A stretch of 32,138 nt of DNA from Clostridia bacterium. Lineage in GTDB: Bacteria; Bacillota; Clostridia; Oscillospirales; Acutalibacteraceae. Under the pieces are notes generated by a model. It was not told the DNA's origin, did no database searches, and saw nothing but the letters and a program-made list of their open reading frames with translations. The stretch lies in contig JAFXCT010000128.1 of assembly GCA_017521365.1 (NCBI GenBank), positions 1 to 32,138 on the forward strand, given 5' to 3'. A program made the translations under genes and the position numbers. Below are positions 11,873 to 14,630 of the stretch, one piece after another (the stretch's first letter is position 1; every line of letters starts with the position of its first letter).

Positions 11873-14107
11873 TTAATAAATCACTCTGTTAATACCAAAC
11901 AGATTCTTAAAGAATGAGAGGAACTTCTGCCAGAAGCCAGCTTTTGAAACTATGGTAATTTCGTCCAAAATCTCCTCGCCGTCGGCGTTGGTAACGGGGT
12001 TTTCTTCCTCGTCAACCAGTTTTGCATAAACCGTCGGGTTGCCGTTGGCAATAGATGTTACTCGGCACTCCAATCCATCCTCACTCACCCAAGTTGAAAC
12101 ACCTGCACCCTCAACAAACCAAGCAACCGCATAGCCCTCGGAAATTTCGATTTCTTCGAGCTGTAAAACAAGGGTTTCACCGAAGTTAACTGTTGTTTTG
12201 GACGGCTGGTTAATTACAGGTGTGCTGTCTTCCCAATCGTCGGTCGGGTTATCGGGATTTACGGGGTCGTCGGGCTGTGTAGGGTCGGACGGTGTGTGAC
12301 CCTCGTGACCCGTGCAAACTCTGAAATCAAAACCGTTTTCCTCGGCGTACGCCCTTAAATAGTCACTGTCCGTCTTTGCGCAGATATAGAAATCGTATTC
12401 GTCGCCACCTATGAAATTATACAGATCAATATACTCTATGCTGTCGGGAATATGAACAGAATTAAGGGATTCGTTATACCCAATCACATTTGTGCTTAAG
12501 TGAGTAATACCTTCGGGAAGAATGAGATAACCGCTTATATCACAGCCGTCAAACACGCTGTAACCTAAGCTGATATGATGACCGTCCGTTTCGGTGAAAT
12601 ATATGTTTCTCAGGTCGTTACAGCTGCCGAAAGCATCTGTACCTATATATTCAATCGTTGCAGGGAAAGTAATGCTGTTAAGCTTGCCGTCGTAAAATGC
12701 GCGGAAGCCTATAAAGCGCAGATTATCCGAAATAACTATGCTCTTAAGACTTTCACAGCGAATAAAGCTACCGCCGCCAACACCTACTACGCTGTCGGGC
12801 AGAATTATGCTTGTAATCCCGAGGTTACTGTCAACGTATTCAGAGCCGGTAACAGTCAACGTACCCTCTTTTACCCTGAACGTGCCGCTTGCGTTTTCGC
12901 TTATTGCAACGAGATGATTGTTTATATACAGACCGTAACCCGACCAGTTTTCCTCGTTAAAAATAGCGGCGTAAAAATTCTGATGTCCGATATAAAATAC
13001 GCTGTCGGGAATCGTTATGTCATCAATATCGGAAATATAGTTTATGGCTGATGCCGCTATGGTTGTAGTACCGTCCTTGACGGTATAGCTTTTCAAGCTT
13101 GTGTCAATATAAGCAAGATGTGTGCCTATATAAATTGCGCCGTCTTCCCAGTTTTCATCATTGTTCCAATAAGCAGTATTGGAAAACGTGTTACAAACAA
13201 ACGAAGTATGCTCGGGTATTGTAATATCCGCAAGAGCCGTACAGCCAAAAAACGCACTGTTTTCAATATAATATACGCTGTCGGGAATTACAATTTCTTC
13301 AAGACTTGTACAGCCGTAAAAAGCGCTTGCGCCTATTTCGCTGACACCTGACGGAATGGTTATGCTTTCAAGGCTTGAACAGCCGTAAAACGTGTTCGGA
13401 AATATCGTAGAAATTGAGTCGCCCCAATTTACCGTTCGGAGATTGATACAGTTTTTAAATGCGCTTGAGCTGTCAGCGCCAACTGAAACTACCGTATCGG
13501 GAATGGTAACGGATTCAAGATACTGGCAATTTTCAAAAGCTCTGCCGTTGACAGCCGTAACATAGTCCGGAACAGTGTAGCTTGTTCTCCTGTTACCCGT
13601 GGGGTAGAAAAGAAGCGTTGAATCTTCAAAAAGCACACCGTTTTCGTCACTGTAATACTTTGTGTTACCTTCGGCAACCGTAATTTCTTCAAGTGCGGTA
13701 CAGCCCTCAAAGGCATACGGGTCGCCGGCTGTAAGCCAGATATATTTCGTTGTGCTTGCGGGGATATGAATTGTTTTAAGAGCCGTGCAGTTTTTGAAGG
13801 CGGCAGGCTGAATTGAGGTTACACCCTCGGATATGGTAATGCTTGTAATCGCCGTGCAGTCCTCAAAAGCATAATACCCTATTGAGGTTACGGGGTAGCC
13901 GCCGAGAGTTGCAGGAGTAACTATGTCACCGCTTATTGAGGTATCGCAATCGGTTATGGTTGCCTGATTGTCCCTTACGTAATAGGTATAGTAGCCCGAG
14001 GTGTATTCACCCTCGGCACTTGCGCTGAATGTAAAGCCGCCAAAGGCTGATAACAGCAGTAATACTGCCATTATCATTGACAATGATTTTCTGATCGTTG
14101 TTTTCAT
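11873..14107 (-). CDS. BspA-type leucine-rich-repeat secreted surface protein
   Basis: 744 residues from the ATG at 14107-14105, chosen because AGGAGG lies 10 bp upstream (14118-14123); an in-frame ATG at 14170 lies upstream of the terminator hairpin and lacks this site. A signal peptide covers about 1-31, ending ASA. Residues about 35-590 are LRR_5/BspA repeats with the pattern AFxxCxxLxxIxIPxxVxxIG. A Pro/Asp-rich linker (DPTQPDDPVNPDNP) leads to a beta-rich C-terminal domain and a final amphipathic tail, FWQKFLSFFKNLFGINR. There is no LPXTG signal. Such proteins bind host proteins or other cells in some species, but the ligand here is unknown. A structured leader with a terminator precedes it. 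Confidence 0.88.
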   Translation of the reverse strand: MKTTIRKSLSMIMAVLLLLSAFGGFTFSASAEGEYTSGYYTYYVRDNQATITDCDTSISGDIVTPATLGGYPVTSIGYYAFEDCTAITSITISEGVTSIQPAAFKNCTALKTIHIPASTTKYIWLTAGDPYAFEGCTALEEITVAEGNTKYYSDENGVLFEDSTLLFYPTGNRRTSYTVPDYVTAVNGRAFENCQYLESVTIPDTVVSVGADSSSAFKNCINLRTVNWGDSISTIFPNTFYGCSSLESITIPSGVSEIGASAFYGCTSLEEIVIPDSVYYIENSAFFGCTALADITIPEHTSFVCNTFSNTAYWNNDENWEDGAIYIGTHLAYIDTSLKSYTVKDGTTTIAASAINYISDIDDITIPDSVFYIGHQNFYAAIFNEENWSGYGLYINNHLVAISENASGTFRVKEGTLTVTGSEYVDSNLGITSIILPDSVVGVGGGSFIRCESLKSIVISDNLRFIGFRAFYDGKLNSITFPATIEYIGTDAFGSCNDLRNIYFTETDGHHISLGYSVFDGCDISGYLILPEGITHLSTNVIGYNESLNSVHIPDSIEYIDLYNFIGGDEYDFYICAKTDSDYLRAYAEENGFDFRVCTGHEGHTPSDPTQPDDPVNPDNPTDDWEDSTPVINQPSKTTVNFGETLVLQLEEIEISEGYAVAWFVEGAGVSTWVSEDGLECRVTSIANGNPTVYAKLVDEEENPVTNADGEEILDEITIVSKAGFWQKFLSFFKNLFGINRVIY

Positions 14108-14117
14108 TTTGTGTTTA

Positions 14118-14123
14118 CCTCCT
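14118..14123 (-). promoter_or_regulatory. Strong ribosome binding site that fixes the LRR gene start
   Basis: A perfect AGGAGG on the minus strand, 10 bp before the ATG at 14107. It follows directly after the T run of the leader terminator, so the hairpin and the initiation site are almost contiguous. Confidence 0.85.
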
Positions 14124-14159
14124 AAAAATAAAAAGTGCGCCCACCGAAGATGAGCGCAC
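14124..14159 (-). terminator. Intrinsic terminator inside the LRR gene leader (attenuator)
   Basis: On the minus strand GTGCGCTCA (14159-14151), loop TCTTCGG, TGGGCGCAC (14143-14135) form a 9-bp stem with one U-G pair, followed by TTTTTATTTTTA. It lies between the promoter and the ribosome site of the same gene, so full-length mRNA requires read-through or antitermination. Confidence 0.82.
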
Positions 14160-14182
14160 AAAAAACGCAAACCCCGGTAGTC

Positions 14183-14340
14183 GCCAAACTAACATATGTG
14201 AAAATGGATGCAAATCCACAACAACAATTGTCGGAGTTTGAATTTTTATCAAATTCCCAATTGTTGTTGGCAAAAATAAGTGCAATTATCCCGTAAAAAG
14301 AAAAAACACACCCGATTTTCACATATTAAGTTAGTTTGGC
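14183..14340 (-). ncRNA. Unidentified structured leader RNA upstream of the LRR gene
   Basis: An outer stem pairs 14330-14340 with 14183-14193 (11 bp) and, after a 3-nt bulge (14327-14329), 14315-14326 with 14194-14205 (12 bp). An inner hairpin pairs 14258-14269 with 14219-14230 (12 bp) and, past a small bulge, 14249-14257 with 14233-14241 (8 of 9 bp). The promoter -10 at 14348-14353 (minus) predicts transcription starting about 14341, right at the 5' edge of the outer stem. The terminator hairpin follows at 14159-14124. Together this has the layout of a cis-regulatory RNA, but I recognise no known riboswitch or T-box motif. An alternative is a miniature inverted-repeat element. Confidence 0.6.
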
Positions 14341-14347
14341 ATTATTT

Positions 14348-14376
14348 AATATACCACATTTGCGCAAGTTATTCAA
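14348..14376 (-). promoter_or_regulatory. Promoter of the LRR gene
   Basis: On the minus strand TTGAAT (14376-14371), 17-bp spacer, TATATT (14353-14348). The predicted start near 14341 gives a leader of about 234 nt. Confidence 0.65.
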
Positions 14377-14439
14377 CAGTATTTTTAAAAAGCAAAAAAA
14401 TTGCGGTTTGTCGAACAAATGAAAGATGTTGTTGCCGAT

Positions 14440-14579
14440 GCCTCCCTCTGACGAGGGAGGTGGGTTTTGCGTAAGCAAAACTCGGAGGGAGAGAAAATAT
14501 ATTGAAACAGCAGCGTTATTAATCTCTCCCTCAGTCAAAATCGCAAGCGATTTCGACAGCTCCCTCGTCAGAGGGAGCC
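14440..14579. repeat. Inverted pair of double-hairpin palindromic repeats
   Basis: Copy A (14440-14494, + strand) and copy B (14579-14523, minus strand) share the start CTCCCTCTGACGAGGGAG and the end GGAGGGAGAGA/TGAGGGAGAGA. Each copy contains two hairpins: a TGAC-looped CCTCCCTC/GAGGGAGG stem, and a second stem (GTTTTGC/GCAAAAC in A, AAATCGC/GCGATTT in B). In the second hairpin the arms differ between copies but pairing is kept. A 28-bp A/T-rich spacer separates the copies. I recall similar REP-like sequences in intergenic regions of gut Oscillospirales; no other copy occurs in this window. The rest of the 14341-14690 gap holds the LRR promoter and the GH92 terminator. Confidence 0.8.
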
Positions 14580-14630
14580 GAACATAACAGCATCATAACA
14601 GACAGACAAACTGTAATTTGAGCAACAAAC

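Follow-up and report, generated by a model that had tools for sequence, protein, structure and literature searches.

Transcriptional riboswitches, among them c-di-GMP-I/II, SAM and preQ1, combine an aptamer with an anti-antiterminator, an antiterminator and a terminator, and multi-copy surface-gene regulons are known for the c-di-GMP riboswitches. In trp-type attenuators, neighbouring strands pair exclusively in a chain (1:2, 2:3, 3:4). The elements used with antiterminator proteins (LicT/BglG, ANTAR, LoaP) are much shorter hairpins than the leader described here. This leader (RNA 14340-14124, minus strand) lies in a stretch of 32,138 nucleotides from a Clostridia bacterium (contig JAFXCT010000128.1 of assembly GCA_017521365.1), hereafter the window. 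Judged by sequence comparison, it belongs to an RNA family of Clostridia with many copies and is very probably a cis-acting transcription attenuator. The riboswitch/attenuator layout is already familiar, and the family is new and absent from Rfam 15. Its unusual features are a near-fixed register between promoter and stem and the occurrence of tandem units that seem to carry their own promoters.

Architecture of the leader and its predicted start

All parts of the leader lie on the minus strand. The -35 hexamer TTGAAT (14371..14376; the family consensus at this place is TTGA) is separated by a 17-nt spacer from the -10 region TGTGGTATATT (14348..14358), which includes an extended -10 TG, and 7 nt separate the -10 hexamer TATATT (14353-14348) from the outer stem. 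This stem has 23 bp, made up of the 11 bp of P1 (14340-14330 with 14193-14183), a 3-nt bulge and the 12 bp of upper P1 (14326-14315 with 14205-14194); upper P1 is seen in the fold, and P1 in the fold, in covariation and in the promoter register. Inside lies a hairpin of 20 bp within 14269-14219, in which P2 (14258..14268 with 14220..14230) surrounds strand A (14250..14256) and its partner B (AAAAATTCAAACTCCG, 14232..14247), which would serve as the anti-antiterminator strand. P2 and A were assigned from the fold and from swap tests, B from pairing tables and swap tests, and so was strand C (CCGGGGTTTGCGTTTTT, 14161..14177), which follows P1 and can pair with either B or D. Strands D (14146..14159) and E (14135..14145) are the 5' and 3' arms of the intrinsic terminator (14159-14135), and D together with 14143-14145 forms the 3' arm of a predicted antiterminator. 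The T tract (14124..14134) is directly abutted by the Shine-Dalgarno sequence AGGAGG (14118..14123). The leader folds at -90.3 kcal/mol, which is 7.6 SD below 200 dinucleotide shuffles (-56.4 ± 4.5 kcal/mol, none as low). Thus the promoter, the bulged 23-bp stem, the inner hairpin of roughly 20 bp, the terminator and the contiguous AGGAGG named in the preliminary description are all present in the sequence. Just upstream of the leader, at 14425-14594, there is a separate imperfect inverted repeat of the GGCTCCCTCTGACGAGGGAGC type with 38-nt arms 94 nt apart, and a resembling stretch was also found upstream of the copy in locus L026.

We collected 228 distinct copies of the element, after dropping elements shorter than 135 nt, identical ones and six weak opposite-strand matches. 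They come in two forms, a long one of ~212 nt (116 copies, the type of the window) and a short one of ~160 nt (112 copies). The covariance model used in the searches was built from 12 copies, with the P1 and terminator pairs only; as these 12 were picked up through their resemblance to the window, the model may overlook remote forms. Of the 228 copies, 128 derive from loci retrieved in a motif scan (at least 120 stretches), and the scan pattern itself includes letters of C, D and of the terminator loop.

A TGnTATAAT-type extended -10 promoter is conserved in the 227 copies with enough upstream sequence. The spacer measures 17 nt in 170 of them, and the distance from the -10 to the first P1 base is 6 nt in 172 and 7 nt, as in the window, in 18. 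Given that the promoter is nearly fixed relative to P1, the first base of the RNA is predicted to coincide with that of P1, here 14340. This agrees with the start at the stem edge that had been proposed earlier, and places it at P1 and not downstream of 14183.

Conserved stems and a relay of exclusive helices

Covariation was assessed on structure-blind alignments against our own tree-based null, and pairs were called significant at E up to 0.05. The 112 short copies gave two significant P1 pairs. The 116 long copies gave four (E 9e-9 to 2e-3), one terminator pair and a pair at the edge of B:C (positions 92-181, E 0.012; A-U 39, G-C 50). They also gave two non-helical signals, both linking position 162 with the P1 pair 8-151 (E ~4e-3). 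In the numbering of the window copy, position 162 lies in the joint after P1, and its covariation could reflect a base triple or a lineage effect. With the same null no significant column covariation was found inside B:C or C:D, where the strands B, C and D hardly vary. In a model-fitted alignment of 89 copies, which leans towards the model, 99.2% of the P1 and terminator cells are paired (P1 alone 99.0%), and 194 double changes were counted against a mean of 48.3 in shuffles. P2, tested as the stretches on either side of B, fits its own strands far better than those of other copies (z -15.9, 35 representatives). Covariation among relatives, the check suggested in the preliminary description, is therefore strong in the outer stem across the 228 copies, and the leader has a conserved, structured 5' UTR domain of the kind by which riboswitches are recognized.

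The strands A to E would act as a relay in which neighbouring helices exclude each other, namely A:B, B:C, C:D (the antiterminator) and D:E (the terminator), and the comparisons below support this arrangement. No antiterminator had been found by eye before; an 11-bp pairing that would compete with the terminator is nonetheless possible in the window, between 14178-14172 plus 14168-14165 (ACCGGGG, GCGU) and 14157-14154 plus 14149-14143 (GCGC, CUUCGGU). Its computed energy is -13.4 kcal/mol, against -17.9 for the terminator and -15.3 for B:C. The terminator being the stronger of the two, the ON state would need kinetics or a helper. Across the family, C (UCGGAGYU..UGCGU) is complementary to D and the terminator loop (GCGU..CUUCGG), which may explain why both the loop CUUCGG and UCGGAG are conserved.

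Pairing tables point the same way. B:C, which lies outside the covariance model, has 92.2% of its cells paired in the first 12 copies. Among the 112 short-type copies most B:C positions are canonical in more than 100, the two weakest in 75 of 89 and 80 of 111, and at one position G-C (64 copies), A-U (33) and G-U (12) alternate. The C:D table covers short-type copies only and is canonical at 108-112 of 112 for six of nine positions, the other three reaching 85/89, 99/102 and 109/111; because the scan pattern holds letters of C and D, C:D conservation in this table and in the 128 motif-fetched copies is partly built in. Pairing of C with D is also stronger for the real C (-9.2 kcal/mol) than for shuffled C (-5.5 kcal/mol) in 86 copies.

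In the swap test we compared the fit of a copy's own strands with that of strands taken from other copies. With 55 representatives z was -6.7 for B-C, -4.4 for C-D and -13.1 for D-E, and -0.05 for the inner-D control. A set of 35 representatives gave -7.2 for A-B, -4.7 for C-D and -8.9 for D-E; its B-C value is biased because B was picked with the help of C, and the B-C tests with 55 and 43 representatives use the whole inner region. The 43 representatives derive from the 100 copies that had not been fetched by the C-D motif, of which 86 could be parsed, and they yielded -5.7 (A-B), -6.0 (B-C), -4.8 (C-D) and -12.1 (D-E). For B-D and C-E, own strands fit no better than those of other copies in these tests, and the negative control A-D gave -2.9 with 43 and -1.8 with 35 representatives. 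The long types taken alone, to which the window belongs, gave lower values, namely -0.6 (B-C) and -1.1 (C-D) in the 55-set, -1.4 (A-B) and -2.1 (C-D) in the 35-set, and -2.5 (B-C) and -2.4 (C-D) in the 43-set; these values are weak because C hardly varies there. Support for A:B likewise comes mainly from short-type copies. Mutually exclusive helices in the expression platform, a further mark of riboswitches, are thus seen by comparison, weakly so in the long types alone. Parsing into strands succeeded for all but 16 of the 228 copies; two copies were unparsed in a smaller strand set, and L094:3703-3920 was visibly misparsed in the 55-representative test.

Folding predictions contain both outcomes. 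Of the parsed copies, 54 of 108 short ones and 38 of 104 long ones contain the antiterminator in their full nested fold; when the folded segment is restricted to C through E, the numbers are 27 of 108 and 39 of 104, respectively. The nested minimum fold of copy L052 combines the rod with a 13-bp antiterminator and lacks the terminator.

Target genes, spread and alternative explanations

The gene behind the leader in the window (11873..14107, minus strand, ATG 14107-14105) encodes a BspA-type leucine-rich-repeat protein of 744 aa with a signal-peptide-like N-terminus and an LRR_5 (Pfam) match at E 9e-78. The preliminary description had presented the leader as preceding a BspA-type surface protein. 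The protein type holds, and the one instance described there belongs to a family with many copies, which are not confined to BspA genes. Among the 114 distinct genes within 30 nt behind the element, 78 have signal-peptide-like N-termini, and within the same loci the rule marks 56 of 75 such genes against 77 of 260 other genes, both counts relying on a home-made hydrophobicity rule. Pfam families among the 114 include LRR_5 (17), dockerin (7), CHAP (6), AMP-binding (4), lectin C (3) and zinc ribbon (3), all lower bounds because many proteins are cut at locus ends. The family thus appears to be placed mainly before genes for predicted secreted and membrane proteins. Some targets are neither, for example a small protein rich in cysteine, 72-129 aa long and marked by CxGN and clustered cysteines, that was repeatedly found behind the element (L156:4457-4702, L143:7222-7608, L203:1527-1742, L243:1732-1947, L252:1265-1483 and L167:188-406); a Pfam scan of two of these proteins gave no match.

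The position of the genes bears on the possibility that promoter, rod and terminator make up a stand-alone, trans-acting RNA of ~215 nt and that the gene behind it is incidental. Each unit does have its own promoter and terminator, and there is no Shine-Dalgarno-preceded open reading frame within 400 nt behind 29 of the 206 copies (the counts leave out 22 of the 228 copies with less than 450 nt downstream). Moreover, 16 tandem element pairs were found, with up to four units in a row in L159 and a promoter-like stretch, identified by eye, before each second unit (tandem loci L159, L180, L089, L094, L144, L167, L130, L203, L188, L208, L038, L041 and L074). Upstream tandem units would mostly yield short terminated RNAs, and plain attenuation gives no explanation for their own promoters. 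Against this, 118 of 206 copies have a start codon with a Shine-Dalgarno sequence no more than 30 nt behind them, compared with 0 of 212 for the divergent side; start codons also bunch at a distance of 8-27 nt (79 of 143 in a smaller set), and the C:D antiterminator would have no obvious purpose in such an RNA. We therefore consider a stand-alone small RNA quite improbable.

The leader could also belong to a riboswitch or protein-leader family already known, at a distance too great for the Rfam models to detect. Its riboswitch layout would fit, as would the surface-gene regulons mentioned above for c-di-GMP. The Rfam scan proposed in the preliminary description covered the window and 20 homologous loci with Rfam 15, and no family, T-box, c-di-GMP-I/II, SAM, preQ1 and 6S included, matched the element at gathering score. 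Relaxed thresholds, applied to two copies, returned sub-threshold matches to unrelated families alone, the best over the element being a microRNA family (E 0.016) and the trpB motif (21.9 bits against a cut-off of 59). The earlier view that the leader is undescribed and fits no known class is in line with these scans, and we regard a missed known family as very improbable. A 6S RNA identity was rejected, since the window has no 6S match and the 6S match of this genome lies elsewhere (C109, 76.7 bits). Our literature search found no paper describing the element. It is not mentioned in the abstract of PMC8040213 or in the passages of its Results that we examined, and the 3161 candidates of that study may include an overlap.

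A third alternative is a mobile palindromic (MITE-like) cassette, with P1 as the terminal inverted repeat and copies spread by transposition. An inverted repeat and tandem copies are indeed present, and copy numbers can be high. As to the spread of the family, on which the main reading also rests, a DNA search found copies in 8 of 11 genomes of the genus, including a second one in the window's own genome, downstream of a tRNA-Leu gene. Covariance-model matches occur in 10 of 11 genus genomes (E up to 0.01), and two genomes have 13 matches each among the matches listed; these include weak opposite-strand matches at places already counted, one in G003 (one of the genomes with 13 matches) and two in G006. 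Further out, the model matched at least 112 of 300 family genomes, which represent at least 57 of the 135 genera in that sample (E up to 0.001). With the limit set at E 1e-4, it matched at least 101 of 295 order genomes, at least 75 of 291 class genomes and 1 of 199 genomes of the phylum sample (the window's own). Copy numbers and rates from family to phylum are lower bounds because 7 to 11 candidates were scored per genome, and the five samples overlap in part. According to their record titles, the motif-bearing contigs belong to metagenome-assembled or uncultured Oscillospiraceae, Ruminococcaceae, Clostridiaceae and other Clostridia, and many of those among the matches listed come from ruminant and deer gut. 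Transposition would also suit the copy in a sister species (L022:174-389, G002:C18) that is 99% identical to window:14125-14340. There the DNA match ends in the T tract and the leader precedes a seemingly different, larger LRR gene (open frame of 1275 aa), a sign of recent leader exchange as a cassette. What speaks against a MITE is that copies diverge widely in sequence while their stems remain paired, that the promoter, C, D and E are conserved outside the inverted repeat, and that orientation to the genes is strict, making this a most improbable origin.

Other neighbours of the copies were recorded as well. In three genomes a tRNA-Leu (GAG) gene lies upstream of a copy on the same strand within ~520 nt (L021:768-851, L034:787-870, L062:2239-2322), tRNA matches were found in 5 of the 20 homologous loci scanned with Rfam, and a Gut-1 RNA (RF01706) lies near one copy at L068:1861-1937. 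A phage origin of the element was considered as well: MT835503.1, an unverified record from human faeces labelled Bacteriophage sp., contains a full copy (L209:338-536, 129.7 bits) before an EcoRI methylase family gene. No copy turned up when viral contigs were scanned for a single exact motif, one so narrow that diverged copies could escape it.

Finally, a leader-peptide attenuator of the trp kind, based on ribosome stalling, shares the logic of exclusive helices and is scarcely credible here: there is no excess of Shine-Dalgarno open reading frames (at least six codons in 15 of the 228 leaders, below the shuffled mean of 31.4, range 24-42), and the predicted RNA start at the stem leaves no room for a leader peptide before it.

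The proposed switch and its relation to known systems

The evidence supports a riboswitch-like attenuator, and the layout proposed in the preliminary description fits what we found, namely a structured 5' domain, a conserved candidate antiterminator, a terminator and a Shine-Dalgarno sequence. The first base of P1 would be the transcription start. When the switch is ON, B would be kept in the rod, paired with A inside P2, leaving C free for D; the C:D antiterminator would then exclude the terminator and the polymerase could read on to the Shine-Dalgarno sequence behind the T tract. When it is OFF, B would capture C across P1 in a pseudoknot of ~15 bp, so that D pairs with E and transcription would end in the T tract (14134-14124). 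Given that the joint after P1 has ~7 bases, P2 must probably open for the B:C pseudoknot.

The balance between rod and pseudoknot would be tipped by a signal acting on the 5' domain. A ligand binding there is the leading candidate, which we put forward tentatively, and a binding protein comes next. The many unlinked targets would argue for a cell-wide signal. A more speculative reading is a new riboswitch class of gut and rumen Clostridia, in which one cell-wide signal, perhaps a second messenger or a cue from nutrients or the envelope, might set the surface proteome (LRR adhesins, dockerin proteins, lectins, wall hydrolases and lipoproteins) by a rod-to-pseudoknot switch. If so, the terminated upstream units of tandem arrays may act as extra sensors or trans-acting RNAs. 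Hundreds of copies, many of them before surface or secreted genes of mostly uncultured gut bacteria, seem to share this one RNA control, and identifying the signal would reveal how such bacteria select the proteins they present to host and fibre. Being large, strongly structured and absent from Rfam 15, the family is directly testable and could join annotation.

How does such an attenuator relate to the known systems? With transcriptional riboswitches it shares a structured 5' domain, a covarying closing stem, a pseudoknot option, several copies per genome, an exclusive choice between antiterminator and terminator, and a Shine-Dalgarno sequence behind the terminator. Unlike known riboswitches, it has no Rfam match, its RNA is predicted to begin at the first base of the closing stem, and its family includes tandem units with apparent promoters of their own and is not tied to one pathway. 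The chain of exclusively pairing neighbouring strands resembles the trp-type attenuator, but the sequences show no excess of frames for a leader peptide. With 6S RNA it has in common a long, rod-like RNA of ~200 nt. As in the LicT/BglG, ANTAR and LoaP leaders, the antiterminator would exclude the terminator, whereas here, in the long type, it is preceded by a 5' domain of ~160 nt.
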